Shown here one piece after another: positions 1-18,489 of a DNA stretch of 64,000 bases (within the stretch, counting starts at the first letter, position 1; each line of letters opens with the position of its first letter). This DNA is from Hymenobacter sp. APR13 (GTDB lineage Bacteria; Bacteroidota; Bacteroidia; Cytophagales; Hymenobacteraceae). Both the position numbers and the translations under genes were made by a program. The stretch is from positions 57,545 through 121,544 of the forward strand of contig NZ_CP006588.1 of assembly GCF_000737515.1 (NCBI RefSeq). The letters run 5' to 3'. The notes beneath the pieces are model-generated. The model ran no database searches, was not told where the DNA came from, and saw only the letters and a list, made by a program, of their open reading frames with translations.

Positions 1-928
1 CGCTCAGGCGGGTCCGCTCGCCGGCCTGGTAGTCCAGCTTCAGCGCCGGAATCAGCCAGGGAGTGCTCAGCCAGTTGCGGGCGCGGGTACTTTGGCGGCT
101 ATCCTGAGCAAACTGCGCATCGGTCAGGCCGCCCGGCTGCTGGAGTTTATCGGTCAAATAGCTGACTTCCGCGCCCAGCGTCAAACGCTTGGTCAAGGCC
201 ACGTGTACGTTGGCATGCACATCGTCGACGGTGAACTGATTAAAGGGACGCCAGCCGTCGCCCTGTCGGTGGCGGTAATATGCATAGTAGTTCACTTTGC
301 CTACCGTGCCACCTACGGCGTTGTAGGAGTTGAACAGGCCGTTGGAGCCAGCTGTATTGCTGGTTTCCACCTCCACCTTTTTATCCTGGGGACCACGTTT
401 GAGCTCGTAGTTGAGCAGACCACCAAACTGGGGTCCAAACTGCAGGCCGGCCCCGCCGCGCAGCAGCTGAATGCGCTCCACCGCTTCCATCGGCGGATTG
501 TAATAGGCCTCGGGGTAGCCAAAGGCGTCGGCGCTCATGTCGTAGCCGTTCTGCCGGGTGTTGAACTCCCAGCTACGATTAGGGCTCAGGCCCCGGGTGG
601 CAATGTTAATTTGCTGACCGGATCCGTCGTTTTCCCACACCATCAGGCCGGGAACGCGGGCCAGCACCTGCCGCACATTGTTCTGAGCCAGGTTGGCATT
701 CACGTCGCGCGGCCTGATAAGCTCGTTGCGGCGGCCGGCCGTGAGCGTGGTGCCCTCAACGGGAGCGGCGAAATGGGGAGCCGTGCCGGTAACGGTGACC
801 TCGCTCAGCTTCTGGTGATGCGTAGTGTCGGGCGCCGGCAGCCGCTGGGCCAACCCGGGCTGGGAAATAATAGAAAAAGCAAAGCTGGTCAGTAGGCCAG
901 CCATGGTCGGGTAAAAAGAACAGCTCAT
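1..928 (-). CDS. TonB-dependent outer-membrane receptor, FecA-like, N-terminal part (cut by window edge)
   Basis: The reading frame runs off the left edge, so only about 309 N-terminal residues are present. The start at 928 gives a signal peptide (MSCSFYPTMAGLL..., ending near GLAQ). A second ATG at 904 is possible but leaves a shorter signal. After the leader comes a plug domain with the usual order: LSEVTVTG, then NVRQVLARVPGLMVWEND, INIATRGLSPNRSWEF and VERIQLLRGGAGLQFGPQFGG. The barrel begins after that. The asparagine-rich plug and Q-F-G-P-Q-F-G-G resemble ferric-dicitrate/siderophore receptors (FecA type). By family it takes up an iron chelate with energy from TonB-ExbBD. The substrate itself cannot be read from the sequence. 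The family assignment is sure. Confidence 0.88.
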   Translation of the reverse strand, partial: MSCSFYPTMAGLLTSFAFSIISQPGLAQRLPAPDTTHHQKLSEVTVTGTAPHFAAPVEGTTLTAGRRNELIRPRDVNANLAQNNVRQVLARVPGLMVWENDGSGQQINIATRGLSPNRSWEFNTRQNGYDMSADAFGYPEAYYNPPMEAVERIQLLRGGAGLQFGPQFGGLLNYELKRGPQDKKVEVETSNTAGSNGLFNSYNAVGGTVGKVNYYAYYRHRQGDGWRPFNQFTVDDVHANVHVALTKRLTLGAEVSYLTDKLQQPGGLTDAQFAQDSRQSTRARNWLSTPWLIPALKLDYQAGERTRLS

Positions 929-955
929 TAGGAGACTTCAGGTGGAATAGTGGCA

Positions 956-963
956 CAAAGGTA
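956..963 (-). promoter_or_regulatory. Predicted Bacteroidota -7 promoter box for the TonB receptor
   Basis: The minus strand reads TACCTTTG, a full match to TAnnTTTG, 28 bases before the chosen start. No clear TTG is seen at the -33 distance, so the call rests on the -7 box and its position. Confidence 0.4.
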
Positions 964-1225
964 TATTTGTTTAGAAAGATTATAAATAACACTAATCACC
1001 CTGGTTACTTACATAATTTCCAGCCATGAGGGGTAATCTTTCGCCCGGGAAGGCCTCGGGCACTGCGGGGCGCGCTACATGGCCCGGATGAATGGGTAGC
1101 TTAGGCAAACGGCAGCACCAGATCCGTGCGTATGGCCGGGGGAAAGCGCGACTGCGTCGCATCCTCTGCCTACAAGCCTCGCCAGTACAGTAGTGGGGAC
1201 GCAGCCGCCCGCCCGGTACTTCTCA

Positions 1226-1357
1226 TTAACGAAAGCCAAAGCCGACGCCTAACGCTACGAAAGCGGCCGGCATGAGGCCCCAAGCTATCATCATGGTCGT
1301 TGCCACAAAGAAGGGCAGGGCGCGGATCAAGCCTTCAGAAGACTTTTGGGAATGCAA
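1226..1357 (-). CDS. Possible 43-aa single-span membrane peptide
   Basis: A short minus-strand frame starts at TTG (1357) and stops at 1226. It encodes a peptide of the form LHSQKSSEGLIRALPFF... with one hydrophobic segment (VATTMMIAWGLMPAAFVALG) and the end GFGFR. It lies 19 bases downstream of the lipoprotein-DUF6122 gene on the same strand and could be co-transcribed with it. No family is recognised and the start is non-ATG, so this is only a candidate. The remaining bases of the 964-1376 gap show nothing else. Confidence 0.22.
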   Translation of the reverse strand: MHSQKSSEGLIRALPFFVATTMMIAWGLMPAAFVALGVGFGFR

Positions 1358-1376
1358 CAGGCTCCTTTCTGCCTAT

Positions 1377-2147
1377 TCACTTACCCTTCTCACGGGCTAG
1401 GAGCCGCTTTAGCCAGCTGCGCAAGGCATAGATACGGGAGTTGAGGTAGCACGCGCGGCAGTGGCTGAAGATCCACAAGCAATCCACCGTATCCGTGAAC
1501 AGGTGGAACAGCAGGCCTACGGCGGCAATCCGCGTGACTGGTAGCAGGAGCAGCAGCGTATACACCGGGATGGCATAAAAAGAGTGGAGCGGGTGATACC
1601 CGATGCTGCAGCGCAAGGGGTCGAAGATAGGCTTGGCCAGCAGGTGGTCCAGGTCCATGATCATGGTGGCAAGCATGATCAGGTAGGCGGTTTGCCACAC
1701 CGCGGGAAAGAAAACAAGCGCCAACACAGCCGGAAAAAGAAAGTGCAGCCCATAATGCACCAACGTTTGGACGCTGAAGAACTTGGGGGAGGCGTACTGC
1801 CGGGGCCTGCGCGAAACCAAGGGCTGAGTGGTGCCACTTACCGTGTCCCTAATCGTTGGCTTGGGCTGAAAGCTACCCAGCCGATTCGGCTGCCCCCTTT
1901 TTTTCGAAGAAGGGTGGGCCGAAGTGTTTGTGGTCGCAGGCTGGACTTCAGGCTGTACCCGCTTCTGCGGCGCAGAGGGGAGCTCAGGAGCTAGGAGGGA
2001 GTTCGCCGTGTCGCAGTGCTGTACCGGCCGCGGGGAGTGGTACCCGGCAGTAGCCGCAAACTTGGGGGGCAGAGCGGATGACCGGCAACCAGCAAGCGCC
2101 AACATCAGGCCGGCGGCGCTATAGCGAATGAAGCTGAAAACAGGCAA
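1377..2147 (-). CDS. Lipoprotein-like N-terminus joined to a DUF6122 membrane domain
   Basis: This 256-aa protein begins with TTG at 2147. An in-frame TAG lies just upstream and the next ATG would leave too short a leader. Residues 1-21 form a leader ending in the lipobox LALAGC. Residues 22-120 are low-complexity, rich in Pro, Ser, Gln and Lys. From about residue 127 the DUF6122 family begins (VHYGLHFLFPAVLALVFF), continues with the conserved IMDLDHLLAKPIFDPLRCSIGYHPLHS segment (D and H residues) and ends with FHLFTDTVDCLW. DUF6122 proteins are usually about 110 aa and begin near the VHYGLHF point, so the lipobox region looks added. Function is unknown; the conserved Asp/His suggest metal binding in the membrane. 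No operon partner is clear. Confidence 0.75.
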   Translation of the reverse strand: MPVFSFIRYSAAGLMLALAGCRSSALPPKFAATAGYHSPRPVQHCDTANSLLAPELPSAPQKRVQPEVQPATTNTSAHPSSKKRGQPNRLGSFQPKPTIRDTVSGTTQPLVSRRPRQYASPKFFSVQTLVHYGLHFLFPAVLALVFFPAVWQTAYLIMLATMIMDLDHLLAKPIFDPLRCSIGYHPLHSFYAIPVYTLLLLLPVTRIAAVGLLFHLFTDTVDCLWIFSHCRACYLNSRIYALRSWLKRLLAREKGK

Positions 2148-2748
2148 GAGAAGCTAGGAAACGTGTTGGGGACGAGTAAACAGGCTTATCCCGAGCAACC
2201 ATCCTGCGGGCGGCCTCGTGGCTCGGCACCATCGAAGCAGCATAGTTGAAGATGGAATCATCCGTTTTGAGCGGGGCATCCAATGTCGTTACCCTGCTTG
2301 CTACGATGCCTATGTCCTTACCGGGCTTAAAATACCCAGGTCGTGAACAGATTGCTGCTATCCCCTCCAGGCAAGAACGGCAACACAGAGTCGGCTATTC
2401 GGTGGGAATGACTAGGTGAGCTTACGCACTTTGCCCGTGCATCGTGTGGCCGATTTACTTGCATAATTTCCAGGTCCTGAACTGCCTCGAGGCAGCGTGG
2501 CGGTTTAAAAAAATCATTCGGCCAAACTGAGAAGTATACACGAACAGGAAAGGCGGTGATTAAGCACTGCACTCCTCTCACGGATGGGGTATAATTCACC
2601 GTTGCTCGATAGATAGGCCTGCAAACAGTGCTCTTCGTTTGCCAGCCGGTCAGGCAACGGGTTGTCGAAGGTGGCAATGCCCCGAGCAATACGGGCAACA
2701 CTAGGAGCAGGCTACCATGGGCCTCCGTTCATAGCATGGAGTGTTGCC
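2148..2748. other. Intergenic region without a supportable gene
   Basis: About 600 bases between the DUF6122 gene and the accessory island. A 124-codon minus-strand frame (2327-2701) has no recognisable domain and an unlikely composition. The segment TTACTTGCATAATTTCCAG (2455-2473) repeats, with one mismatch, at 1005-1023. Nothing else stands out. Confidence 0.5.
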
Positions 2749-2811
2749 AGAAACATATTTTATATTTTTAGAAACGATTTTCAATATTTCAGAAACGATT
2801 TTCGTATATTT
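2749..2811 (+). repeat. Three tandem 21-bp direct repeats (candidate operator)
   Basis: The unit begins AGAAAC and recurs at exactly 21-bp steps: 2749, 2770 and 2791. Units 2 and 3 share AGAAACGATTTTC and end in an AT-rich ATATTT; unit 1 differs after AGAAAC. The step equals two helical turns, so bound proteins would sit on one face. The array ends 20 bases before the ATPase start codon, and the third unit contains the -7 box. This is the arrangement of an operator over a promoter. A binding protein cannot be named from sequence, but the ATPase next door carries a helix-turn-helix and is a natural candidate. Confidence 0.7.
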
Positions 2812-2812
2812 G
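2805..2812 (+). promoter_or_regulatory. Predicted -7 promoter box of the IetAS-MBL-E2E1JAB operon
   Basis: TATATTTG matches TAnnTTTG fully and lies in the third 21-bp repeat, 18 bases before the ATG at 2831. The leader would be short, as is common in this phylum. A -33 TTG is not obvious. Confidence 0.5.
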
Positions 2813-2830
2813 AGTACGTATAAAGCACTC

Positions 2831-3928
2831 ATGTTCACAGAAATCATAAAAATCATTGAAGGCGGCCTCAACAAGGATTCGCAGAAGGTGCTTAGTTACG
2901 CCACGCTGCTAGCCGAAAACCTCCGCAAAGCCGGTGACACGAAAGCGGCTGACCGCATCCTGCGCGCCTTGCACAGCAAGCAGGCCCAGCCCGTGTACCT
3001 CGACCAGCTTTTGACCGCTCCGGTTGATCAGGAGACCCGCATGAATATTGCTGACCTGGTGATGCCCCAGCCAGGGTTGGAGCTGCCAGTTATTCTTTCT
3101 GATAACCTGCGCCATAAGCTCGACGGCTTTGTGAATCGATTGCAGCATCGTTCTGAACTCCAGGCCGCGGGCGTAGCTCCGCAGGCTTCTCTCTTACTCT
3201 ACGGCCCCCCCGGCGGCGGCAAGACCACCATTGCCCATTACATCGCTCAGCAAATGCACCTCCCGCTGGTGGTGGCTCGGCTCGACTCGCTGGTTTCCTC
3301 GCTGCTGGGTAACACGGCCAAGAACATCCGCAAAATTTTCGAATTCGCCAGTCGCCAGCCCTGCATCCTGTTTTTGGATGAGTTTGATGCCATCGCCAAG
3401 GCCCGGGACGACCAGCACGAGCTCGGGGAACTGAAGCGGGTGGTCAACAGCTTGCTGCAAAACATTGATGAGTTTGTGGAATCCAACATCCTGATCGCGG
3501 CCACCAACCATCAGGAATTGCTGGATAAGGCCATTTGGCGCCGGTTTAACAGCATCATCGACGTGTCCCTGCCCCAGCCGACCGACATTCAGCGTCTGCT
3601 ACAGCTATTTCTGAAGTCCGTGGAGTTGGGATTTGACCTGGACAGCAAAAAAGGGGAGGCCCTGGCCGAACTGCTACAGGGCAACAGCCCGGCCGACATC
3701 AAGTCCATCTGTCAGAATGCCATTGCTCAGAACGTGCTGGCCAAAAAGCCAAAGCTGGAGTACGAACACCTGCTGCTGCAATTCTACTACTACAAGCACC
3801 ATGAAGCAGCCTCTCAGGAAGCCCTGCTCGGCTTTTTGAGTGCCCATGGGGTATCACAGGCCGCTATTGCGGAGTTACTCGACATTTCTCTACGCCAGGT
3901 GCGCAACTACTTTAATCCGAAAGGCTAG
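2831..3928 (+). CDS. ietA: AAA+ ATPase with C-terminal helix-turn-helix, IetA-like
   Basis: A 365-aa AAA+ protein. Walker A is GPPGGGKT (125-132), Walker B ILFLDEFD (179-186), sensor 1 AATN (223-226) and the arginine finger region RRF (237-239). The C-terminus (about 335-365: HGVSQAAIAELLDISLRQVR) reads as a helix-turn-helix. The frame extends upstream to a GTG at 2741, but that extension covers the promoter repeats, so MFTEIIKII at 2831 is preferred. The gene stops 2 bases before a subtilisin-like protease. An AAA+ ATPase next to an S8 protease is the IetAS pair, described for plasmid incompatibility and later as a phage-defence system. By that model the ATPase gates or feeds the protease. 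AAA+ identity is certain; IetA identity is inferred from pairing. Confidence 0.85.
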   Translation: MFTEIIKIIEGGLNKDSQKVLSYATLLAENLRKAGDTKAADRILRALHSKQAQPVYLDQLLTAPVDQETRMNIADLVMPQPGLELPVILSDNLRHKLDGFVNRLQHRSELQAAGVAPQASLLLYGPPGGGKTTIAHYIAQQMHLPLVVARLDSLVSSLLGNTAKNIRKIFEFASRQPCILFLDEFDAIAKARDDQHELGELKRVVNSLLQNIDEFVESNILIAATNHQELLDKAIWRRFNSIIDVSLPQPTDIQRLLQLFLKSVELGFDLDSKKGEALAELLQGNSPADIKSICQNAIAQNVLAKKPKLEYEHLLLQFYYYKHHEAASQEALLGFLSAHGVSQAAIAELLDISLRQVRNYFNPKG

Positions 3929-3930
3929 GT

Positions 3931-6315
3931 ATGGAACCCAAGAATCTTCCCATTAAGCTGTTCAGCAAGCGCGGCACCCAGGACGAGCGCAAAACCGAAG
4001 CTGGGGGCGGCGGCCCCCAACCCAGCTGGCTATTGCCCGAAGACATACTGGAAGCCCGGGCCACCGAGTTTCGGCAATCATTGGGCGCTACGGCCCAATC
4101 TATTGCTGCGCGGCGGCCGGAGCGCAGCTTTATTCCGGCCGTGGTACAGGTAACAGTGCGGGAAGATGCCATGGCCAAGTCACACCGGGGCGAGGTAGGT
4201 AAACTCTTCAACCGCAAGGAAGAATACAACTTCATCGGGCTGTCCGAAGACCTGGACTTCCTGGTAAAAGTGGACTCGCCGGAGCACGTGGCCTTCATCG
4301 ACCATAACCTGGAGCGCCCGCTGGCTTTCTCCATCGGTTTATCCGCCATTGACGAGATTCGACCATTTCAGCCGCGCATTGATTTACCCCAGGATACCTC
4401 CACGCCGTTAAAAGTCAAGCTGGTGAATTATCAGGATCGGCAAATGAATGCCCAGGTGGAAAGTGCCTTTGAGCAAACCCTGCGCGAGGGCCAGGTTGCC
4501 TACCGTAAAACCCGCTACACTTCCGGGTTGACCGTTTTCAAGCTGGAGCATGTCCGGCCCGATACCCTCGTGACGGTGCAAGAGTTTGAGGCGCTGTATT
4601 CGATCGACCCCATGCCGGCTTACCGCATCACGCTCGACGAGCTGAGCAGTGGCCTGGAACTGCCGGTAAAAACCCCGGTGCCGGGACAGGATTACCTGAC
4701 CGTAGGCGTACTGGATTCTGGCATCGCCCCCATTCCCCACTTGGCCCCGTGGCTGGATTCGCGGCGTTACTCGGCCTACAACGAACCGGAAGTGGACCGT
4801 TCCCACGGCACCTTCGTAGCCGGTGTGCTGCTCTACGGCGACGAGCTGGAGCAGCGCAGCTGGGTGGGGGTGGGGGAATTCAAGCTGCTCGATGCCACCG
4901 TGTTTCCGCGGCCGGGGCTGGAAATTGATGAGGATGAGTTGCTGGAAAACATTCAGAACGCGGTGCTGGCCCACCCCGACGTGCTGCTGTGGAGCCTGTC
5001 CGGCGGGGGCACGATGGAATGCAGCGCCCGGGACTTCTCGGACTTCGGCAAGTCGCTCGACGAGCTGCAGCAGCGCACGGGGGCCCTGATCTGCAAATCG
5101 GCGGGCAACTGCACCAACTTCGTTTCAGCTGCCCCCAAGCGACGCATTCCTGTTTCGGCCGATTCCGTGCGCTCCTTAGTGGTGGGCAGTGTAGCGCACA
5201 GCCAGGGGCCGGACGACCTGGCGGCCGAAGGCCACGCCTCGCCCTTCTCGCGCTCGGGATTTGGTCCTAACAAGCTCATCAAGCCCGAGCTGGTGCACTA
5301 CGGGGGGAATGGTGGCGTCACGGCCGGCGGGCGCATGAAACTGACCGGCGTCAACTCCTTTTCCCTCACCGGGGGCGTGGTGCAGCAAGCCGGCACGAGT
5401 TTTTCCACCCCCCGGGTGTCAGCGCTGATGGCCGGCCTCTCGCACCGCGTGGCCGGCGACTTCAACCCCCTGCTGCTGAAAGCCCTGGCCATTCACTCGG
5501 CTAAATACCACCCGGGCCTGAGCCTGAGTCCGAGCGACCGGTTGCGCGAATTGGGCTTCGGCTTGCCGGGCTCCGTGGACGACATCATCTTCAATTCGCC
5601 CCACGAAAGCACGCTGATCCTGCAGGACAACATCGTGCGCGGGGGCTACATTGAGATCCTCGACTTTCCATTTCCCGACGTCTTACTCAACGACGAGGGC
5701 CAGTTCTACGGGGAGGTTACGGTCACCTTGGTCACCGACCCGCGCCTGGACGGCAACCAGGGCGCCGAGTACTGCCAGTCCAACATTGACGTGTCTTTCG
5801 GCACCTACGACCGGATTCGCCTGCGCGACACGACCAAGCGTACCGTCTCCAACCCCATCGGCAAGCTTAATCCCTACAATCTGCTGCTCTCCAGCAACTA
5901 CGCCGCCAAGTTCCAGCGCTACATCGACCACCCGTTCACGGCCGAGCGGCAACTGCGCGACGACTTGGGCAAGTACCACCCGATTAAGAAATACGCCATC
6001 AACCTGCAGGAAATGACCGAGGCGCACCGGGTACGCGGGCTGACGGCGCCCAAGAAGTGGTACCTCGAGCTCAAGGGCCTGTTTTCGCACGCGGCGGAAG
6101 CGGCGGCCGCGGCCGACGGCGAGGTGCTCTCCCAGGAGTTCTGCCTCATTGTGACCATCCGCGATCCCCTGCAGCGCCACGACGTGTATAGTTCCGTCAC
6201 CCGCAGCCTAACGCTTAACAACTTCCAGCATAACAACATACAGCTGCGCAACGAGGTCAGTTTGAACTTACGCAACACCAGTGGCGGTTCGGCTCCCGAG
6301 CCAGCCCCCGAATAA
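3931..6315 (+). CDS. ietS: Subtilisin-like (S8) serine protease, IetS-like
   Basis: A 794-aa protein with an intact S8 triad: Asp262 in VLDSG, His292 in SHGTFVAG and Ser490 in GTSFSTPRVSALMAG. The oxyanion Asn393 lies in SAGN. There is no signal peptide, so it acts in the cytoplasm. Residues 1-250 are an N-terminal region of unknown fold that may mediate contact with the ATPase. After the catalytic domain (about 255-520) there is a further 270-residue C-terminal region. The gene begins 2 bases after the ATPase stop, so the two are tightly coupled. In IetAS systems both proteins are required for defence; the trigger and the substrate are unknown to me. The residues needed for activity are all present. 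Confidence 0.87.
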   Translation: MEPKNLPIKLFSKRGTQDERKTEAGGGGPQPSWLLPEDILEARATEFRQSLGATAQSIAARRPERSFIPAVVQVTVREDAMAKSHRGEVGKLFNRKEEYNFIGLSEDLDFLVKVDSPEHVAFIDHNLERPLAFSIGLSAIDEIRPFQPRIDLPQDTSTPLKVKLVNYQDRQMNAQVESAFEQTLREGQVAYRKTRYTSGLTVFKLEHVRPDTLVTVQEFEALYSIDPMPAYRITLDELSSGLELPVKTPVPGQDYLTVGVLDSGIAPIPHLAPWLDSRRYSAYNEPEVDRSHGTFVAGVLLYGDELEQRSWVGVGEFKLLDATVFPRPGLEIDEDELLENIQNAVLAHPDVLLWSLSGGGTMECSARDFSDFGKSLDELQQRTGALICKSAGNCTNFVSAAPKRRIPVSADSVRSLVVGSVAHSQGPDDLAAEGHASPFSRSGFGPNKLIKPELVHYGGNGGVTAGGRMKLTGVNSFSLTGGVVQQAGTSFSTPRVSALMAGLSHRVAGDFNPLLLKALAIHSAKYHPGLSLSPSDRLRELGFGLPGSVDDIIFNSPHESTLILQDNIVRGGYIEILDFPFPDVLLNDEGQFYGEVTVTLVTDPRLDGNQGAEYCQSNIDVSFGTYDRIRLRDTTKRTVSNPIGKLNPYNLLLSSNYAAKFQRYIDHPFTAERQLRDDLGKYHPIKKYAINLQEMTEAHRVRGLTAPKKWYLELKGLFSHAAEAAAAADGEVLSQEFCLIVTIRDPLQRHDVYSSVTRSLTLNNFQHNNIQLRNEVSLNLRNTSGGSAPEPAPE

Positions 6316-6411
6316 GCCAAGTCAATACCTGCATTACTTAAATGCCCTGGCTAATCCACCAACTCATGTGGAGGCATAGGATTTTTTTCACTGTTCATAT
6401 TTTTTCTAGTT

Positions 6412-7596
6412 ATGGCAAACGCTACCATAAAATACTACCCCGTCGGCAACGGCGATTGTTCGCTGGTTACTCTTGTTGACGGTACCACGATGCTCGTCGA
6501 CTGCAACATCCGTGAATCAGCTTCGGGTGACACGGACGATACCAAGTTTGATGTAAAACAGGACTTGCTGGCCTCGCTCAAGCGTAATACAGCGAACAAT
6601 CCTTTTGTCGATGTGTTCGTGCTCACCCACGGTGACCAAGATCACTGCCGGGGTTTCGCAAAGAACTTCTTCCAAGGTGACCCAGCTACCTATAGCGCCG
6701 ACGATCGTGAAGCTGGTCGCATTCTTATCGATGAAATTTGGTTTTCGCCAATGGTTGAGGAAGTAAGCACCAACCCAGACGAGGACGTATTCGAAGCCGA
6801 GGCCATGCGGCGCGTCAAGCTCCACCGCGACAAAGCTGCGAACCGGGACGAGCCCGGCAATCGAGTGGTCATCATAGGCTACGATGGGCGCGGCAGCTTC
6901 AAGGACCTGAACCACTTGCGCCAAACGCCAGGTAATATAGTTACCCGGTTTAACCAGAAGGAACAAACTCTATTCTCAGTATTTTTGCATGCACCCTTTA
7001 AAGAGCAGTTATACGACGAAGAAAAGGATAAAAACTTTGCCAGCATTGTGTTCCAGGCTCGGTTTAAACAGCGCGCAACGGACACTGATTTTGCTTGCTT
7101 AGCACTATTCGGCGGCGATTCCGACCACTGGGCTTGGTGCGTTATCCTGGACAAAACTACCCGACACAAAAATGATGTAACGCATAAGGCCCTGGATTGG
7201 GATCTATTTCTTGCGCCTCACCATTGCTCGTGGTCTTACTTCAATGACCGGCCTCAAGCCGACAATCCTACCCCAAAGGCCGAACCTTTAGCCGTACTAG
7301 ATTATGCCCGAACTGGGGCACGCGTAATCGCGTCCAGCAAAGAAGTGCTGGATGATTCTAGCAACCCACCGCACTACGAGGCCAAGCTGGAATACATCAA
7401 GAAAGTGGGCAAAGCCAATTTCCTCAACACGGATACACACAAGAAAAAGGGCAATACTCCCCAGCCCATTGTGTTTGAGGTAACTTCCCAAGGGCCGGTG
7501 CCCGCTAAACTGGTAGAAAGCACCGCTACGGTAGCAGGTACGGGGGCGCTGGGGGCGTTGCATAAACCATCAGGCTATGGCGCGGAAGCTATTTAG
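6412..7596 (+). CDS. ComEC/Rec2-like metallo-beta-lactamase-fold hydrolase (first of three)
   Basis: A 394-aa MBL-fold protein. The metal site is THGDQDH (His73, Asp75, Asp77, His78), preceded by MLVDCN and followed by FGGDSDHW and APHHCSW, which supply the later Asp and His ligands. The His-x-Asp-x-Asp-His form is typical of ComEC/Rec2-like relatives rather than true lactamases. No leader is present. It starts 96 bases after the protease and overlaps the next gene by 20 bases, so it is translationally coupled to the E2-E1-JAB enzyme. Family members often hydrolyse phosphoesters, including nucleic acids or nucleotides. The substrate here is not known. Confidence 0.85.
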   Translation: MANATIKYYPVGNGDCSLVTLVDGTTMLVDCNIRESASGDTDDTKFDVKQDLLASLKRNTANNPFVDVFVLTHGDQDHCRGFAKNFFQGDPATYSADDREAGRILIDEIWFSPMVEEVSTNPDEDVFEAEAMRRVKLHRDKAANRDEPGNRVVIIGYDGRGSFKDLNHLRQTPGNIVTRFNQKEQTLFSVFLHAPFKEQLYDEEKDKNFASIVFQARFKQRATDTDFACLALFGGDSDHWAWCVILDKTTRHKNDVTHKALDWDLFLAPHHCSWSYFNDRPQADNPTPKAEPLAVLDYARTGARVIASSKEVLDDSSNPPHYEAKLEYIKKVGKANFLNTDTHKKKGNTPQPIVFEVTSQGPVPAKLVESTATVAGTGALGALHKPSGYGAEAI

Positions 7597-9889
7597 CCAT
7601 TTCTTGCGCCGTGACAAGCGTCCCATCACGAATCCCCGGCTGGAAGCCTCGTTGCGTGAGTTGGCAAGTCACTTAGGCGTGGCTGTACTGAAACCGCTGG
7701 CTTGGGATAACGACCATATTGGCCTGGCCTTAACCGTAGCGGTTGAATTACCTCCCCGGGGCAACTACGCAGGGATTGACATTCGGGCCCAGGAACCGGT
7801 GCTGCTAGTGCTTAGCCGCACCGGTTACCCCACTGCGACGCCGGTGGTATATGCTGACCGACTTGATTTCCCTAAAGACCAACTTGCTCATTTGTACGTG
7901 GCAGTGCCGGGTAAACCGCCAGCATTTTGTCTGGTGCGTGGCGACTTCACGGAATGGTATGCTAACCGCCGGCTCCCCGACGTCGTAACCCGCACCCAAA
8001 ACTGGCTACGCGACGCGGTTACTGGCGAGCTGGCTGTTGACGGGCAGCAGTTTGATCCGCTTCGGTTGGAAGGGTACCAGGGCTCCGTTATTTATCCCTA
8101 CGACCATCTGGCCCAGGTTGTGTTAACTAGGCCAGCGTCTGGAGTGGCCAATTTTTCCGTAGCTCTGTTTGAGAATACAGCCCCAGTCGGGACTTCTCCC
8201 GCTTTTAGGCTTGACAGGTTGGTCACGCCTGAAAATATAGAGGAAATCGTAGAAGAGTTTCTGCGCGGCATGCGGGCAGTGGCCGCCAATTCCTTACAGG
8301 CCCGCCGCTACCACGCCGGTTACGTGGTGTGGTCACCTGCAGACACCACCTATTCCGATTACTGCGTGGATTTGCCCCGCAGTTGGCAAAAATTACTGGC
8401 CTTTGGTCAATCATTTGGCATTGACTTTGGTCCCTTGGAACGGCACTTAGCCGTGCACGACATCAATTTCTTCCCAGAAGTACCCGTGCTATGTGCCCTG
8501 AAAAGGCCCAAACCACTCATTGGATTTACAGCAAATCTGGAGTTTGTCAACTTTTACCTCACGCTGCAAGACACCGACAAGGATCCAACTACAGGTCGCA
8601 TTATAAACGATCTGCCTGTAAGCTTTCAGGTGCACAATGAGCCCTTAACCCTGCAGAAGGCCCAGGTGGTCTCTGGGGCGGCGGTCGTACCTGTTGGCTC
8701 GATCTGGGTGGCAGGTTGCGGGGCCTTAGGTTCGAAAGTGGTGATGCATTTTGCTCGTGGTGGCATTACCGATTTTGTGCTACTGGATCCCGACAAGCTC
8801 TCCCCTCATAACCTAGTTCGCCACACTTTATTTGCCCAGCATGAGGGCCTGAACAAAGCACTTGCTTTAGAGCAAGTCATTCGGGAAATGTATAGATATG
8901 AAACCGGTTTGGGTCTGATTGCCCTTGCCCGTTCAGCTGATTTCGTGTTAGCGCCCGTCGTGGGGAATGTGCCTGTTACTATCCAACGAGTATTTGACTT
9001 CACTGCATCGGAAGCCTTTTTCCATACCCTTTTGGCTAGTCCAATACTTGCTCAGACAGTAATAAGCCGAGGGCTTATTTCGGACCAGGGGCAGCTCGGC
9101 ATTCTATCCTTGGAGGGGGCCAACCGCAATCCGCGATTGGATGACTTGCAAACTATGCTTTACGCCGAATATGCCCACCGTCCCGCAGTGGCCGCATGGC
9201 TGGCGCGGGAAGTGGCTTTAGCTCAAACCGACGGTCCGCTGTTAAGCGTAGGGATAGGCTGTAACTCCGAAACCACAGTCCTAGCCGATGAAACCATCTC
9301 GACCCACGCAGCCTATTTCGCCGAAGTGCTCAAGCAAGACGCGGTAGTTAGGGAGCGGCCCGTTCACGGCCAAGTGTTTCTTAGCCGCGTCGCCATCGAA
9401 GACGGCTACCCCAGTATTTCCACCGAGCGCTTGGTAGTAGAGCCCATGCATGTGTTCAACGCGGTGAACGACGCGAGTTGGCAGGTGCGCATGACGGCAG
9501 CGGTGCTGCAAACTATTAAACAAGAGTTGGCGCTTGCAGCCCCTCACGAAACGGGCGGCGTATTTATTGGAAGGGCTAATTTTAAAACCAAAACCATCCA
9601 CGTAGTAGGGGTGGTGCCAGCGCCACCCGACAGCCGAGCCAACTCCGTGTGCTTCTTTCGCGGCGTACAGAATCTGCCGGAAACGGTAAACAAGATCAAC
9701 CAGGCCAGTGGCGGGCAACTCGGCTACATTGGCGAGTGGCATACTCATCCAGTTGGGCCTGAGTGCATGAGCCCAACCGATGCGGCCACGGTGCAACGCT
9801 TCCAGCAAGAGTTTGCTGACCTTACAAGCCCCTTACCAGTTTTCTTGCTTATTGCCACGCCCTCTGCCATCCTGCCTTTTGTCTACTGA
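7577..9889 (+). CDS. Single-chain E2-E1-JAB ubiquitin-like conjugation/deconjugation enzyme
   Basis: A 770-aa three-part protein. Residues about 20-150 resemble a prokaryotic E2: paired prolines with TGYPTATP, then Cys118 in AFCLVRG as the likely thioester cysteine, then EWYANRRLPDVV. Residues about 370-600 are an E1/ThiF domain, with the nucleotide loop VAGCGALGSK (378-387), LLDPD (402-406) and a candidate catalytic Cys562 in GIGCNSETT. Residues about 645-770 are a JAB/MPN peptidase with Glu658 (HETGG) and HTHP...SPTD (His722, His724, Ser732, Asp735), a full JAMM set. Residues 160-365 are unassigned. The same three activities occur as separate Cap2 and Cap3 in CBASS, but no CD-NTase or ubiquitin-like gene is near. 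Such fusions near MBL genes have been noted in comparative genomics. Target and modifier are unknown. Confidence 0.88.
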   Translation: MARKLFSHFLRRDKRPITNPRLEASLRELASHLGVAVLKPLAWDNDHIGLALTVAVELPPRGNYAGIDIRAQEPVLLVLSRTGYPTATPVVYADRLDFPKDQLAHLYVAVPGKPPAFCLVRGDFTEWYANRRLPDVVTRTQNWLRDAVTGELAVDGQQFDPLRLEGYQGSVIYPYDHLAQVVLTRPASGVANFSVALFENTAPVGTSPAFRLDRLVTPENIEEIVEEFLRGMRAVAANSLQARRYHAGYVVWSPADTTYSDYCVDLPRSWQKLLAFGQSFGIDFGPLERHLAVHDINFFPEVPVLCALKRPKPLIGFTANLEFVNFYLTLQDTDKDPTTGRIINDLPVSFQVHNEPLTLQKAQVVSGAAVVPVGSIWVAGCGALGSKVVMHFARGGITDFVLLDPDKLSPHNLVRHTLFAQHEGLNKALALEQVIREMYRYETGLGLIALARSADFVLAPVVGNVPVTIQRVFDFTASEAFFHTLLASPILAQTVISRGLISDQGQLGILSLEGANRNPRLDDLQTMLYAEYAHRPAVAAWLAREVALAQTDGPLLSVGIGCNSETTVLADETISTHAAYFAEVLKQDAVVRERPVHGQVFLSRVAIEDGYPSISTERLVVEPMHVFNAVNDASWQVRMTAAVLQTIKQELALAAPHETGGVFIGRANFKTKTIHVVGVVPAPPDSRANSVCFFRGVQNLPETVNKINQASGGQLGYIGEWHTHPVGPECMSPTDAATVQRFQQEFADLTSPLPVFLLIATPSAILPFVY

Positions 9890-9950
9890 AACGCGTAGCG
9901 GAAACTCCTCACAGGTTATGGACTACCCGCTTGACCCGGTCAAGGCACGA

Positions 9951-10484
9951 TTACTTCATTAGTGGCTTGTTTGTTAGGCGAAGCGTTAGGCCAGAATTAG
10001 AGCCCGCCGGCAGTTGGCTGCCCCTTTGGCTGCCATCTATGCTATTTTTCAGGTAGAGGAGCAGTCTTCGAGGATCTTCCAGATTTCCTTCGATCAACTT
10101 GGAGGACCTTCGTGGTACCATAGAGGATTTGGCTCGATATACTTCTACTGCGTTTCCTTCCCCAATGGCCCGGTGGCAAATGCCACGCATATAAAAGGCG
10201 TTGAATTCTCCTTCCGCAAAAATCAGCGGTGCATTCGCCGGTACTTTCCGTAATACGATTCCATGCTTCTCGTGCGTCTGAAAGCAATTATGCTGTTGCA
10301 GTGCTGTGGCCAGTGTTTCTTCATTCCCATCTATCACTGCTTGGCGCAGAAGTTTTGGGTAAAGAGCCTTTCCCTCTTCGGTGAACCGCATGCTAATGTA
10401 GAGTTGGCTGGTTTTGATGGCAGCCTCTACTTCGAGCAGCATGTAGTCTCTGGTTTTCTGGTCTAGATTATCGAACTGAAACAT
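9951..10484 (-). CDS. Conserved 177-aa protein of unknown function
   Basis: A soluble, charged 177-aa protein beginning MFQFDNLDQKTRDYM. It contains EGEFNAFYMRGICHRAIGEG in the middle and ends with a segment rich in Pro, Gly and Ser (LPAGSNSGLTLRL). I recall similar unnamed proteins of this size in many bacteria, but I know no function. No signal peptide or membrane segment is present. It converges with the E2-E1-JAB gene (61 bases apart) and lies 89 bases downstream of the DUF2235 gene on the same strand, so these two minus-strand genes are probably one unit. Confidence 0.7.
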   Translation of the reverse strand: MFQFDNLDQKTRDYMLLEVEAAIKTSQLYISMRFTEEGKALYPKLLRQAVIDGNEETLATALQQHNCFQTHEKHGIVLRKVPANAPLIFAEGEFNAFYMRGICHRAIGEGNAVEVYRAKSSMVPRRSSKLIEGNLEDPRRLLLYLKNSIDGSQRGSQLPAGSNSGLTLRLTNKPLMK

Positions 10485-10573
10485 ATCGTTCCTAAAAAGC
10501 GTGGGCCCACTAGCCGGATGTTGTGAGCAAAATGGAATGCTGGATTGAGAGGTATTCCCTACACTGGCGCAGG

Positions 10574-11617
10574 TTATGAAGCACTAACCGTTAGCCTTTC
10601 CAAGGCAGCTGCTACGTTGACGGGCTTGTAATCGGGTAGGGCTCTTATTCGCTGCAGTACACTCTCATCAATTGTTTCATTGCTGCCCTGACCGACACCG
10701 ATTTCACGCACGTGCGTGCCCAGCAGCCGGTAGAGCCACGTCATGGAATTGCGCAGTTGGTCACCATACCACGGCTTGTAATACGCCAAAAAAGCTTCGT
10801 CGACCTCTAGGCCCAAAGCGGTAGCTTTTTCTTTAAGCCAATGCAAAGGAATATTAGCTAACCCATCTTTCTCATAGCCACCTCCTACGTTGGTATGTAC
10901 GCCAGCGAACCAGCGTTGCTCCAATACCTGTGAGGTTGTTACATGTTCCCACAGCGTTGGTCGAAACGTTTTTCGCTGCTCATCCACTGCCAACGCTTGG
11001 TAGGCGTGCTGGATGCAGGGGCTGAGGCTGGAATCGTGGAACATATAACGCCGACGATTGAAAAGATTGAACAGGTTCAACGGCAGGCCCAGGGCTCCTA
11101 CAGTATCCCACACGCCAACAAAATGGATAGGAATGGGTTGGGCATGGTGCCTTGTTCTAAACGCAGCAATTTGGTGTTGCCACGCTTCCTGTGGGTCCCC
11201 TTTGGTGGGCCGCTGCCGATACAGACCGTACGCTTCCGGCACATAGAAGTCCTCCTGCTTGGGTAGCAAACCAATGTGCTGAATCAATCCGGCCAAGCTA
11301 CGGACCGTGTAAGCCCCCCGGCTAAAGCCGAACAGAAATATCGCATCCCCGGGCTCATAGTTGTAGAGCAAAAACCGGTACGCTTCAACGACGTTTTTAG
11401 ATAATCCCAGCCCTAAGCCGCCCCCAAGAAACCGGTCCAGTCCCCAATGATTGCCCACGCCCTCGTCGTAATAGGTTACTTGCACGGTGTTATCAGCGGT
11501 TAGCGGTTTGATTGACCGCACCATCTTCATCACGTTGGTAGGTTTGCGCTTGCGGTTATCCATGTTTTCGGCCCGATTCCAGGTGCCGTCACAAAGGACA
11601 ATTAGGCGTTTTGACAT
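10574..11617 (-). CDS. DUF2235 alpha/beta-hydrolase (Tle1-like putative lipase)
   Basis: A 347-aa DUF2235 protein. It starts with KRLIVLCDGTWN, has the nucleophile elbow GFSRGA (Ser99) and later FVGVWDTVGALGLP and the candidate catalytic His in HTNVGGGY. The start at 11617 (MSKRLIV) is chosen over an upstream ATG at 11641 because the DUF2235 fold begins at KRLIV. In some bacteria DUF2235 proteins are Tle1 phospholipases delivered by type VI secretion. No type VI genes are seen here and there is no leader, so a cytoplasmic hydrolase is likely. It is divergent from the metallopeptidase operon, with 219 bases between them. Confidence 0.83.
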   Translation of the reverse strand: MSKRLIVLCDGTWNRAENMDNRKRKPTNVMKMVRSIKPLTADNTVQVTYYDEGVGNHWGLDRFLGGGLGLGLSKNVVEAYRFLLYNYEPGDAIFLFGFSRGAYTVRSLAGLIQHIGLLPKQEDFYVPEAYGLYRQRPTKGDPQEAWQHQIAAFRTRHHAQPIPIHFVGVWDTVGALGLPLNLFNLFNRRRYMFHDSSLSPCIQHAYQALAVDEQRKTFRPTLWEHVTTSQVLEQRWFAGVHTNVGGGYEKDGLANIPLHWLKEKATALGLEVDEAFLAYYKPWYGDQLRNSMTWLYRLLGTHVREIGVGQGSNETIDESVLQRIRALPDYKPVNVAAALERLTVSAS

Positions 11618-11836
11618 GAGATGTAAGATTGGAGCCAGCAAACTTGGAAAAGGCGTGTAGCAAGCTGCAAGTGAAGATTAGTTAAAATTATTGTGCAAAG
11701 CTGCATATTACCTTTTCATTGCAGCTGGGTGCCAGTTGGCCACTTTGGCGCTTGGCGCCCTGAGAATATTACTGCCAGCACACTCCAATCACTTCGAATA
11801 GCGCTTGGCAATGGCCATATAAACAGCTTTTAATCA

Positions 11837-13888
11837 ATGTCTTTACCAATCCAACATCGCCCGCGCATCGCGGAACCTGGGCACCGAAGTTTACGGGCGT
11901 ACAGCTTCGATCCTTCGTTGTCTCTGCGCTTGGACACAGTGGCCATAAACCGACTTACCTATCAGGTGGATTGGGAATCTGTGACACCGGGACCGGTGGG
12001 TGAGTACCTGGAGGTATTGGACTACGATCCTACCGTGCGACGGTTCTATTTACCGGTCGATCTAAACGACCGGAACTTGCTCGCTCAACACGGGTTAGAG
12101 CCCAGCGAAAGCAATCCGCAGTTTCACCAGCAAATGGTGTACGCGGTGGCCATGACAACAATTAAAAATTTTGAAAAGGCTCTTGGCCGTAAAATTCAGT
12201 GGTCCCCGCGGCGCACGCTTGATGGCCCCGGGTACGAAGAGTATGTGGCGCAACTGCGCATTTACCCGCACGCGATGCGAGATGCCAATGCGTACTACAG
12301 TCCTTTAAAGAAGGCTATTCTTTTCGGGTACTTTTCCTCCACCCCTGCGGATGATACCCAGCAAATGCCCGATTCACTGGTTTTTACCTGTCTGAGCCAT
12401 GACATCATCGCCCACGAGGTGACGCACGCCATTCTCGACGGCATCTACACGCATTACAACGAGCCAACCAACCCCGATGTGCTAGCTTTTCACGAAGCTT
12501 TCGCGGACATCGTAGCCCTGTTTCAGCACTTTACTTTTCCGGAGGTGCTCAAACACCAGATTGCTCGCACGAGGGGTGATTTATCCGCGCAGAACTTACT
12601 GGGTGAATTGGCACAACAGTTTGGTACGGCTATCGGCGGCTACGGCAGCTTGCGCGACGCCATTGGACGCCAGGACCCCAATACCCAGCAGTGGCGGCCT
12701 TTGGAGCCTAACAGTGACGAATATCGGCAGCAAACCGAGCCGCATGCCCGCGGCAGCATCCTGGTAGCAGCAGTTTTTGAAGCCTTTACCTCGATTTATA
12801 AGGTGCGGATCGCGGACCTGTTGCGCATCGCCTCGGGCGGCAGCGGCATCTTAGCCCAGGGCGAACTGCATCCGGATTTGGTCAACCGCCTAGCGGATGA
12901 AGCGGCTAAGGCTGCGAATCATGTGCTGGGCATGTGCATCCGGGCACTTGATTATTGTCCGCCCGTAGACATCACTTTCGGTGATTACCTGCGAGCCATC
13001 ATCACGGCTGACGTTGACTCCGTACGGGACGACCGGTATGAATACAGGCTGGCTTTTATTGATGCTTTCCGTCGACGGGGCATTTATCCGCAGGGCATCA
13101 AGACGCTGAGCGTGGAAAGCCTGCGTTTACCCGGAATAGGAACTATTGCGGAGTACAATTCAGATTCAGCTTCTCAGAAGGTGTTGACGAAACTCATCGG
13201 ACGACTGCGGGAATACGCGATAGGAATCAAGTACGAAAACGACCGGGCTAAGATAGATGCCTTCACCCGAAATTTTATTGGTAAGCTGCGGAAGGAAGAG
13301 ACGGGAGAAACGGAGGGGATTCACCAGTATATCAGTGAGCAATTTGCCACTTCTAAGGAGTTTACCAGCTTTACCGGAATAGCCTTTGTGTTGGCTGACT
13401 CGCTTCACGCAGCTGTCGTCCACCAAACTACCTATTCGTCACGCCCCTCTTTTCAAGTTCAAAACCTGCGGCTAGTCAGCCGATCCGGACCAGATGGTTT
13501 ACAAATTAACCATGTTGTTTTTTGCCTGGTGCAGCGTAGCGGCGTTGTATTTAGAGAGGGTAAAGTGGTAGGACATTACAATTTGAAAGAAGGCATCCGC
13601 ACCAATCCGGGCGACACGGAGCAGCGGATGGAGTTCCGCGGGGGCTGCACGCTTATTCTGGATCTGGACACGCTCAGTCTAAAGTACGTGGTGAACCGGC
13701 CTTTGCTCAACATGCAGGTGTGGGAGCAATCGGGAGGTGAAATAGCCGTGCTCGACACAACCCGGGCTGAGCGGCAGTACCGCTATACGCGCCAAGGGCA
13801 GCACCACCACCACAATGCCTATACCCAGTACTTCGGCCAGCAAGTGCAGCACCTGAGCGAGCCGTTTGCCTTCTTGCACCAACACTAG
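11837..13888 (+). CDS. Gluzincin-type zinc metallopeptidase (M4-like)
   Basis: A 683-aa protein with the zinc motif HEVTH (193-197) and, 23 residues on, HEAFADIVALF with Glu220 as the likely third ligand. This is the HExxH...E pattern of gluzincins such as M4. No signal peptide is seen, unlike secreted thermolysins, so it likely acts inside the cell. Residues 240-450 and 530-683 have no recognised domain; the end is His-rich (GQHHHHNAYTQ). It begins an operon with two MBL hydrolases (8 bases to the next start). The target is unknown; the setting suggests a conflict or defence role, which is inference. Confidence 0.8.
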   Translation: MSLPIQHRPRIAEPGHRSLRAYSFDPSLSLRLDTVAINRLTYQVDWESVTPGPVGEYLEVLDYDPTVRRFYLPVDLNDRNLLAQHGLEPSESNPQFHQQMVYAVAMTTIKNFEKALGRKIQWSPRRTLDGPGYEEYVAQLRIYPHAMRDANAYYSPLKKAILFGYFSSTPADDTQQMPDSLVFTCLSHDIIAHEVTHAILDGIYTHYNEPTNPDVLAFHEAFADIVALFQHFTFPEVLKHQIARTRGDLSAQNLLGELAQQFGTAIGGYGSLRDAIGRQDPNTQQWRPLEPNSDEYRQQTEPHARGSILVAAVFEAFTSIYKVRIADLLRIASGGSGILAQGELHPDLVNRLADEAAKAANHVLGMCIRALDYCPPVDITFGDYLRAIITADVDSVRDDRYEYRLAFIDAFRRRGIYPQGIKTLSVESLRLPGIGTIAEYNSDSASQKVLTKLIGRLREYAIGIKYENDRAKIDAFTRNFIGKLRKEETGETEGIHQYISEQFATSKEFTSFTGIAFVLADSLHAAVVHQTTYSSRPSFQVQNLRLVSRSGPDGLQINHVVFCLVQRSGVVFREGKVVGHYNLKEGIRTNPGDTEQRMEFRGGCTLILDLDTLSLKYVVNRPLLNMQVWEQSGGEIAVLDTTRAERQYRYTRQGQHHHHNAYTQYFGQQVQHLSEPFAFLHQH

Positions 13889-13896
13889 CCGTCGGC

Positions 13897-15444
13897 ATGG
13901 AACATAATAGAAACACTACTGCTCTAGAAGGGGCATCCATGTCGCCAGCCGTGCCCACTACCCGGGTTGACGTGCGCATGTACTGTCTGGGTACAGGCGA
14001 TTGCTTCGTGCTCAAATTCTTTGCGCAGGAGGAATTGCAATTCACCATGCTGATTGACTGCGGAAGTTGTATGGGCACGCGGGCCGACTTTTTACCCTAC
14101 ATCGAAAACCTAGTTGACTACGTCGAAGGCAAGCTGGACTTGCTGGTCATTACTCACGAACACCAAGACCATGTCAATGGGTTTGACAAGTGCCTAGAGG
14201 AGTTTGAGCAACTTGAAATTGGGGAGGCTTGGTTTGCGTGGACTGAGGATCCTGATGACCCACAAGGACGGGCCCAAGACCTGCTCCAGAAAAGACAAAA
14301 AATGCGCCTGGGTCTCCGAAATGCCATCACCCAGCTGCATACGAACAGAGGTGCCATTCACGCCGAGCAAACCAATCTGAAAGCCAATGAGCAGGCACTG
14401 TTGGCTCTAGATGCTTTTCTTGATGGGATGGACACGCTCGGAGCCGTGAATTTAGACGAAGCGCTGCCTGCTGCGGGGGGCCTGGCCGGGATGCGAAAAA
14501 TCAAGCAACTGCTGAAAAACAAGCAAGTGCGTACCCGCTACCTACTGCCCGGAGCTTCGCTTCCCATGCCCCAGGTGCCTGGCGTCCGGTTTCATGTATT
14601 GGGCCCGCCACTAGACAAGGCGCATATTTTTGCCGATGGCAAAGAGGGCCGCGATACGCACCCTCGCCACACCACTCCAGGGGAAGGTATTCTGGCGATG
14701 AACAGCTTTCTTACTATTGATGGAGATATCTCTCCAGGCGACCTACCATTCTCGGATAAGTATGCTGTGGGGGCTCAGGGACTCGTCCAATCGGAACTCG
14801 ATCACTCACCCGCCGAGAGCGCAGTGTACTTGAGCCAGGCCCGAGACTTGTTTGACCGTTACGCGGCCTTCGACAATAAGTGGCGGGATATTGAGCAGGA
14901 ATGGCTATACACGGCTGGTTCATTGGCCATTCGACTGGACTCTCACATCAACAACACCAGTTTGGCCTTGGCCATTGAGATCGGAACAGGTGGCCCCGTA
15001 CTGCTGTTGCCCGGTGATGCTGAGTACGCCAACTGGGAGAGCTGGCACCTGATTGAGAAATGGAATGGCACAGGCCCCAATCCTAAACATTTCGTGACGG
15101 ACTTACTGAGCCGTACCGTTTTTTACAAGGTCTCACACCATCTAAGCTTCAACGGCACTCCATTGGACAAAGGCATTCAGTTACTGAACAACCCGGATTT
15201 GGCGGTCATGGTCCCCCTGGATCTACGACGTATCTCATCCCGTTGGCGAACTACGATGCCTAATTACCGCTTGCTTCGAGACTTGATGGAACGCAGCCAG
15301 GGTAAATGTATTATTATGGACGAAATTGAAATCATTCCGCGCCCCTCCGCGCAATATGATTTGACAACCCTTGGCGAAGCCCGGTATAGAGTCATCACCA
15401 AGGATGGTCAAACGCTAGCCAAGCAATACACTGTATTTGTATAG
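13897..15444 (+). CDS. ComEC/Rec2-like MBL-fold hydrolase (second of three)
   Basis: A 515-aa MBL-fold protein. The metal site is THEHQDH (His87, His89, Asp91, His92), with MLIDCG upstream and LLLPGDAEYANW and YKVSHHLSFNGT downstream as later ligands. A start at 13939 (MSPAVP) is also possible. The insert between the first metal site and the PGD strand (about residues 105-330) is long and helical, rich in Gln and Lys. It follows the metallopeptidase by 8 bases, clearly one transcript. Compared with the MBL at 6412, the first metal site uses His rather than Asp at the second position, so the two are not simple copies. Confidence 0.83.
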   Translation: MEHNRNTTALEGASMSPAVPTTRVDVRMYCLGTGDCFVLKFFAQEELQFTMLIDCGSCMGTRADFLPYIENLVDYVEGKLDLLVITHEHQDHVNGFDKCLEEFEQLEIGEAWFAWTEDPDDPQGRAQDLLQKRQKMRLGLRNAITQLHTNRGAIHAEQTNLKANEQALLALDAFLDGMDTLGAVNLDEALPAAGGLAGMRKIKQLLKNKQVRTRYLLPGASLPMPQVPGVRFHVLGPPLDKAHIFADGKEGRDTHPRHTTPGEGILAMNSFLTIDGDISPGDLPFSDKYAVGAQGLVQSELDHSPAESAVYLSQARDLFDRYAAFDNKWRDIEQEWLYTAGSLAIRLDSHINNTSLALAIEIGTGGPVLLLPGDAEYANWESWHLIEKWNGTGPNPKHFVTDLLSRTVFYKVSHHLSFNGTPLDKGIQLLNNPDLAVMVPLDLRRISSRWRTTMPNYRLLRDLMERSQGKCIIMDEIEIIPRPSAQYDLTTLGEARYRVITKDGQTLAKQYTVFV

Positions 15445-15551
15445 AGAATGGGGGGCTTAGCGTGCAATGTTACCATCCTAAGCAAAAGACTACTTTAGTA
15501 AAACTTGAAATAACCTTTTTCTTAAAACAAAGCTCACTTCCCTTTCCTTTC

Positions 15552-16565: not shown

Positions 16566-16611
16566 ACAGGCCGCCATTTAACAATAAGGCAATGAGAATG
16601 TCAGTAAAAGC

Positions 16612-16643
16612 GAGATGGTCTAGCTAAAACGGACAGGACGAAG
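16612..16643 (+). mobile_element. Solo IS3-type terminal sequence (relic)
   Basis: GAGATGGTCTAG followed by CGGACAG and GAAG closely matches the right end (read inward) of the intact IS3-family element at 62436-63680 (GAGGTGGTCTAG, CGGACAG, GAAG). No transposase follows. It is best read as the remnant of a related element at the edge of the accessory island. Confidence 0.5.
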
Positions 16644-16670
16644 TCTACGTTTACTTAATCCGAAGGTGTA

Positions 16671-18388: not shown

Positions 18389-18489
18389 GCCATACGAGCT
18401 AAAAATGAGCAGCGCCCCGGCCAGTAAATAAGGAGGGAAACCGGAGGTAGGAGAACACCCGGAAAGGGCGCGAAGCCGCCCGGACAGCG

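Follow-up and report, generated by a model that had tools for sequence, protein, structure and literature searches.

Hymenobacter sp. APR13 (labelled G000; a 5.0-Mb genome in 4 contigs) carries four consecutive genes that join an IetAS ATPase/protease pair to a metallo-beta-lactamase (MBL) and an E2-E1-JAB fusion enzyme. They lie in the window analysed here, the right-hand 64 kb of a 121.5-kb contig. A check of the open reading frames (ORFs) confirmed all four on the plus strand: IetA (2831-3928, ATG start), IetS (3931-6315), the MBL (6412-7596) and E2-E1-JAB (7577-9889). An in-frame GTG is present at 2741, upstream of the IetA ATG; close relatives start at the identical MFTEIIKIIEGG. IetA and IetS are separated by 2 bases, IetS and the MBL by 96, and the MBL and E2-E1-JAB overlap by 20. 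The original prediction, made from the letters of the window, had these ORFs, their spacing and their common strand exactly right, and its family assignments were borne out by PADLOC for IetAS and by NCBIfam for the MBL and E2-E1-JAB.

The IetAS pair and its promoter

An adjacent AAA ATPase and S8 protease, both matching PADLOC models over their full length (IetA PDLC02196, E 4.5e-136; IetS PDLC02201, 1036.6 bits), identify the first two genes as IetAS. They fall short of the NCBIfam equivalog cut-offs for IteA and IteS (372.2 of 510 and 361.7 of 900 bits) and thus form a distinct subfamily. IetA is a p97/Cdc48-like AAA+ ATPase (p97 match 2.9e-56) with a Walker A motif from residue 125 and FLDEFD from 181. 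Its C-terminus carries a helix-turn-helix (HTH)-like segment at about residues 336-360, recognized from an alignment in which the pattern ...QxxIAexxxxSxRQVRN recurs across the subfamily. IetS, a 794-residue S8 subtilase (Pfam S8, 2e-26), has the triad motifs DSG from 262, SHGT from 291 and GTSFSTP from 488. It matched no PDB sequence, and no IetS was found in viral contigs.

The region before IetA (2749-2830, plus strand) contains four iterons of 21/22 bp: AGAAAC at 2749, 2770 and 2791, spaced 21 bp, and AGTACG at 2813. Among the repeats lies a Bacteroidota -7-like box, TATATTTG (TAnnTTTG; 2805-2812, plus strand). Across G000 the pattern AGAAAC-15-AGAAAC has 10 matches; two, overlapping, are the promoter iterons and eight are isolated pairs on contig C1. 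We compared the 140 bp 5' of IetA with itself, free of any motif, at lags 12-32 in 12 non-redundant loci of the clade to which the window's IetAS belongs. Lag 21 reached z = 11.1, and |z| was at most 2.4 at all other lags. At lag 21 the controls gave -0.9 (Shedu, a single-gene defence system), 1.0 (the 6A-MBL genes of 20 relatives) and 1.4 (the window's own IetS-MBL gap), and nine divergent IetAS loci taken jointly gave 0.2. A cruder motif count found 20 pairs in 14 loci against a shuffled mean of 2.3 and a maximum of 8 in 1000 shuffles; taken singly, only 6 of the 14 loci fell below 0.05. The promoter repeats that the original prediction had noticed are thus part of a 21-bp period that lies far above chance at the IetA promoters of the clade.

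From the iteron promoter and the HTH-like end of the protein, we infer that IetA would bind the iterons and autoregulate its promoter. On the plus strand there is no TAnnTTTG between 2813 and 6979 (the whole window has 19 matches, not above shuffled sequence), and the 96-bp gap between IetS and the MBL (6316-6411) has no terminator-like hairpin. Both observations are compatible with one transcript, which IetAS and the genes behind it probably share; the downstream module would thereby be controlled jointly with IetAS.

A second, exchangeable module

The MBL scores 379 bits against NF058524 (cut-off 220) and E2-E1-JAB 538 bits against NF058523 (cut-off 320). Together these are the NCBIfam models of the "anti-phage 6A-MBL system", where "anti-phage" is the NCBIfam name only; a search of open-licence papers did not find the term 6A-MBL. 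Row 6a of Iyer et al. 2006 gives a triple-module E2-E1-JAB operon "almost always next to a metallo-beta-lactamase" (PMC1779556), so that, going by this row and the NCBIfam models, the second half of the locus is already known. Like type 6a, the window's enzyme has the order E2, E1, JAB in a single chain. Among relatives, the MBL adjoins E2-E1-JAB in 40 of the 42 loci with a long E2-E1-JAB match, and the two exceptions, L032 and L083, are truncated where their stretches end.

The catalytic residues of the fusion (E2 Cys118; E1 Cys562, GxGxxGS and D404; JAB E658, H722, H724, S732 and D735) are invariant in 25 of 25 sequences. Foldseek matched its AlphaFold2 model (predicted local distance difference test, pLDDT, 83; predicted template modelling score, pTM, 0.71) to Cap2-CdnD02 (7to3, 5.6e-22) and Cap3 (9ild, 2.4e-8), in keeping with a Cap2-Cap3-like fusion. 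The MBL is a ComEC-like hydrolase with an HxDxDH motif (H73, D75, D77, H78, D236 and H270 invariant in 45 sequences), and the nearest structure to its model (pLDDT 87.9) is 9ic4, the ComEC beta-lactamase-like domain (7.7e-14). By Pfam, no ubiquitin-like domain occurs in the four ORFs, nor is there among them the separate ubiquitin-like protein gene expected of a Bil or Bub operon. The whole genome G000 has no match at E 0.001 to SMODS (CD-NTase), which a type II cyclic-oligonucleotide-based anti-phage signalling system (CBASS) would contain.

The complete four-gene combination occurs only in three near-identical Hymenobacter loci. A 306-kb plasmid of Hymenobacter sp. DG01 (G472) matches positions 1-20000 of the window at 99.9% identity and has the same four genes, and a contig of Hymenobacter metallilatus 9PBR-2 (G432, also represented by L002) has all four at 98.5% DNA identity across 10.4 kb. 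The three represent copies of a single locus and not separate events. Within 111 surveyed loci, IetA and IetS matches appeared only in L002. Forty of the loci have both MBL and E2-E1-JAB, and 29 of these, one being L002, extend at least 4 kb upstream; IetAS was absent from the other 28 and from G503, which has 6A-MBL (0/29, a set that includes near-identical loci such as L017, L018 and L021). Of 395 Bacteroidota genomes, 7 passed the 6A cut-off. IetS reached E 1e-40 or better in 5, in 2 of these as a strong full-length match; G000 alone was in both groups. Among 120 Hymenobacter genomes, E2-E1-JAB was found in 4, IetS in 7 and both in 3, the near-identical copies.

Two relatives reveal what was exchanged. 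G417 and G510 share the window's left flank and IetAS at 94-95% DNA identity. Homology to the window ends at 6303, next to the IetS-MBL gap, which marks where the exchanged segment starts on the left, and picks up again at 16876 (99.6-99.8%). In G417 the intervening segment holds a type III CBASS (CD-NTase, HORMA, TRIP13, NUDIX-TM) and a Pycsar-like pair; in G510 it contains a SMODS match and ORFs equal in length to those of G417. What was swapped is 6A-MBL plus its right-hand neighbours, not IetAS together with 6A-MBL. We therefore rejected a four-gene system, for which there is no second independent instance. The genes form two distinct modules, of which the second already has a name, in a combination peculiar to this locus. 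The co-occurrence check attached to the original prediction came out in part. IetAS and 6A-MBL are found apart, which refutes the specific combination; separate promoters, the other half of that check, were not shown.

Neighbours of IetAS across the clade

To see what else follows IetAS, we searched 33 whole genomes with SMODS and ThiF, two profiles added since the family list had shown 25 of 71 families. We counted as positive a SMODS (CBASS cyclase) or ThiF (E1) match on the same strand, at most 2.5 kb downstream of IetS. Weak IetS-like matches of at most 226 bits (G461, G669, G706, G731, G835, G118, G292, G243) and an IetS fragment in G428 had been dropped before the counts. Positive loci numbered 14 of 20, or 10 of 14 after near-identical ones were merged, and in all 14 the partner lies downstream on the same strand. 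For comparison we used Shedu loci from a single family, one to which many of the IetAS loci also belong. CBASS or E1 genes lay within 10 kb on either side in 0 of 15 (in one of these, G899, the contig ends about 370 bp downstream, and two had no ORF for the neighbour list), giving a Fisher p of 5e-5 for 10/14 against 0/15. Four locus types had prompted the idea; the ten types that came to light after them gave 6/10 (p 0.0012).

The modules themselves are varied. Behind IetAS stand 6A-MBL in the window, type III CBASS in G417/G510 and CBASS in G688, G701 and G682:C5. Others are a 104-residue protein with a weak DUF2604 match plus an E2-E1-like protein (G431), Multi_ubiq plus E1 (G154), Multi_ubiq-E2 plus JAB-E1 (G552, G952, G956), and a Multi_ubiq-like protein plus E1 downstream of a second IetAS copy in G432. 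No such module follows IetAS in G682:C22, G783, G891/G896/G902 (Mrr-like plus DUF2971) and G935. The modules are scattered on the IetS tree, and three IetS proteins at least 95% identical carry 6A-MBL, type III CBASS, and the 104-residue protein with its E2-E1 module. In this clade, IetAS repeatedly stands at the head of CBASS and ubiquitin-like operons and has phased promoter repeats, an arrangement for which we found no description in the open-licence literature. Such neighbours are far commoner than for the control defence gene, which makes it likely that IetAS is linked, at this general level, to an immune operon.

This tally bears on the single system that had been predicted, in which a ubiquitin-like tag is attached and removed beside a proteolytic executor, IetA being a p97-like unfoldase and IetS the protease for tagged proteins. 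The p97-like nature of IetA fits, as do the six E1-bearing locus types (6A-MBL, G431, G154, G552, G952/G956 and the second copy in G432). Four CBASS locus types (G417/G510, G688, G701, G682:C5), however, have no ThiF match on the contig, and 6A-MBL lacks IetAS in 29 of the 29 other loci examined. IetAS at the CBASS loci and 6A-MBL at its other loci each do without the supposed partner, so the specific reading as one system fails, and a coupled tagging and proteolysis machinery is very unlikely. We rejected IetAS as a general degrader of tagged proteins on account of the CBASS partners without E1.

Defence-island stacking would explain the neighbourhood without functional coupling: independent systems would share insertion sites and expression. 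The exchange of modules behind IetAS accords with it, as do the absence of such modules from 6 of 6 annotated divergent plasmid loci and the occurrence of IetAS and 6A-MBL each without the other. Stacking does not readily account for 14 positives in which the partner invariably lies downstream on the strand of IetAS and belongs to one of two kinds, when Shedu has 0/15. In 62 neighbours (of Shedu, and upstream of IetA) the E1 profile gave at most 6.4 bits, where left-out known E1 proteins gave at least 35, the cyclase profile being too weak for judging those 62. We regard stacking as possible, at odds well short of even.

Several points weigh against IetAS as an autoregulated leader of such operons. 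Six of the 20 clade loci (4 of 14 merged) have no such module, and neither do nine divergent IetAS loci, namely six annotated plasmids and L168, L170 and L184 (phmmer only); the partner is thus not obligatory. G701 and G682:C5 have sister IetS proteins and the same module, perhaps from one event, which would lower the count to 9/13 (p 1e-4). The comparison draws on one control family from one taxonomic family, and the 2.5-kb limit was set after the data had been seen. The downstream gaps of the positives run from 39 to 822 bp, several with hairpins, which leaves co-transcription uncertain outside the window. Lag 21 is the top single lag in only 8 of the 12 loci, and it is also the top lag in the divergent locus L139. 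The HTH-like segment matches HTH_23 at E 0.0011, below the Pfam cut-off, and its best PDB match, Aca1, is not significant (E 1.2). By eye, most divergent IetA proteins, which lack the 21-bp ladder, also end in HTH-like segments; the HTH is thus not special to the subfamily, whereas the ladder apparently is. An IetAS match in Fusobacterium without annotation was left out of the count; its record, NZ_CP084075.1, is listed as a plasmid of 2.1 Mb with one annotated feature and is perhaps a mislabelled chromosome.

IetAS might instead be an addiction or guard module, retaining the immune cassette and its plasmid or backing the cassette by cell killing. IetAS reportedly first came to notice as a toxin-antitoxin system of Agrobacterium Ti plasmids, and an autoregulated operon is usual for such pairs. 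The near identity of the window's first 20 kb to a 306-kb plasmid would suit this role; two IetAS loci on contigs of 714 and 814 kb, maybe chromosomal, speak against it. We consider it doubtful.

On balance we put the probability at about 0.6 that the window holds two modules on one probable transcript, with IetAS as an autoregulated leader and 6A-MBL conjugating its own MBL. In Cytophagales and relatives, the slot behind such an IetAS is often filled by CBASS or ubiquitin-like/E1 operons, which suggests that the pair is a swappable control or guard unit placed before immune operons. A more detailed version is less likely than not: IetAS of this clade may be a further family of DNA-binding AAA+/subtilase controllers that silence the iteron promoter and, on infection, release both the protease and the exchangeable CBASS, 6A-MBL or ubiquitin-like operon, with the MBL as a JAB-matured modifier.

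The stretch behind IetS has further features in other loci. Within the first 230 bp 3' of IetS, a conserved-looking structured element, a hairpin followed by a long stem with an apical stem, is present in L138, L159-L161, L177-L179, L181 and L182, loci with a gap of at least about 200 bp; it is absent from the window copy. Its apical stem varies in a paired way by eye (CTGAGG:CCTCAG, CTTGGG:CCCAAG). Six of the nine loci were searched against Rfam and gave no match to the element (only a tRNA matched), and a consensus fold, with three pairs and probably misaligned, did not support it. An 86-residue protein without a Pfam match is also encoded 3' of IetS in L161 (8480-8740), L160 (8286-8546) and L179 (8078-8338).

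The MBL tail, effector candidates and known systems

The MBL ends in 27 residues modelled as disordered (368-394, at 7513-7593; pLDDT<50). This flexible tail contains a glycine, Gly390 (SGYG|AEAI; codon at 7579-7581, plus strand), conserved in at least 90% of 45 sequences and followed by 0-6 residues. A G preceded by one of YQAFHN falls within the last 8 residues in 106 of the 120 homologues listed (of 1029), as against 25 of 120 listed (of 1096) for another MBL of the window (15462-16565); that this control family was compared by its tail only, with neighbours left out, weakens the contrast. L023, with its split MBL, L032 and L083, whose stretches contain no MBL, and duplicates of the window itself were left out of a 37-row tail alignment. 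We rejected the glycine as a by-product of the overlapping ATG, because it persists when the codons read TAC-GG and when the next gene begins only beyond the stop codon of the MBL.

In type II CBASS, the Gly or Ala at the C terminus of cGAS is linked to targets by Cap2, without a ubiquitin-like protein (PMC10097602). We predict that the MBL is itself the conjugated modifier, trimmed by the JAB domain; with no ubiquitin-like domain in the four ORFs, the MBL would be the likely bearer of the role that the original prediction gave to a ubiquitin-like tag. 6A-MBL would then work like type II CBASS with an MBL hydrolase replacing the cyclase. The JAB domain would remove the four residues after Gly390, the E1 and E2 domains would pass Gly390 via Cys562 and Cys118 to target amines, and the JAB domain would also remove conjugated MBL. 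Once conjugated, the MBL would act as a nuclease or signal-maker and, in most relatives examined, would work with a membrane effector encoded by the gene that follows the module, a patatin or small transmembrane (TM) protein.

Such a third gene, on the same strand and within 100 bp, occurs in 29 of the 40 6A loci; 28 of the 29 encode a GGGxR patatin motif or at least two hydrophobic segments, and one TM protein matches PADLOC PDC-M48A (1.6e-69). The window has no effector gene directly adjoining E2-E1-JAB, neither patatin nor TM gene, a further point against the proposed scheme. Its nearest effector candidate is a DUF2235/Tle1-like phospholipase (10574-11641, minus strand; PF09994, 1.3e-86), which might act on membranes, and G503 likewise has a DUF2235 gene near 6A-MBL (L133; PF09994, 5.7e-87). 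Beyond it, on the plus strand, lie a metallopeptidase-like gene, with HExxH seen by eye and no Pfam match, and a second MBL, MBLb (11837-15444); in G503 these two stand directly 3' of E2-E1-JAB on its strand. The last MBL of 11837-16565, at 15462-16565, is PDC-M48B-like.

PADLOC's candidate PDC-M48 consists of a small TM protein (A) and an MBL (B), and the A-type TM family follows 6A-MBL in L008; MBL plus TM protein may be a type-I-like form, with E2-E1-JAB the type-II-like addition. In L003, L004 and L006, a gene of 907-916 residues precedes 6A-MBL by 235-283 bp on the same strand; that of L003 reads by eye as an AAA NTPase with TPR-like repeats and is possibly another leader.

The second module thus resembles type 6a in placing E2-E1-JAB in one chain beside a specialised MBL, above both NCBIfam cut-offs. 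It differs from most 6A-MBL loci in following IetAS and in lacking the adjacent effector gene. It shares with type II CBASS the E2-E1 and JAB folds, a Gly-bearing C-terminal tail on the partner enzyme and, in relatives, a membrane effector; unlike there, an MBL replaces the CD-NTase, Cap2 and Cap3 are fused, and up to six residues follow the tail glycine. The conserved glycine with its trimmable extension offers a single-residue test of the 20-year-old type 6a E2-E1-JAB/MBL operon.

The first module is like IetAS (IteA/IteS in NCBIfam) in its AAA ATPase and S8 protease, and unlike divergent IetAS in its 21-bp ladder and CBASS/E1 neighbours, which are not seen there as a group property. CapW, CapH with CapP, and CapK with CapS stand before CBASS, Bil, Bub and MBL operons, CapP being a protease and CapH a DNA-binding repressor (EMBO J 2026, PMC13373217). 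IetAS resembles these controllers in standing directly upstream of diverse immune operons, as it does at 14 of 20 loci. DNA binding and derepression of the downstream operon would be hypothetical for IetAS, which shows iterons and an HTH-like segment. Unlike the Cap controllers, IetAS is an AAA+/subtilase pair that NCBIfam itself names anti-phage, and control by DNA damage is for it only hypothetical. Genes placed upstream are known to control CBASS, Bil and Bub operons, and here a protease-ATPase pair with its own phased repeats occupies that slot. Such a pair would connect a stand-alone defence system with signalling and conjugation systems, and the exchange of modules behind a constant leader would become directly testable.

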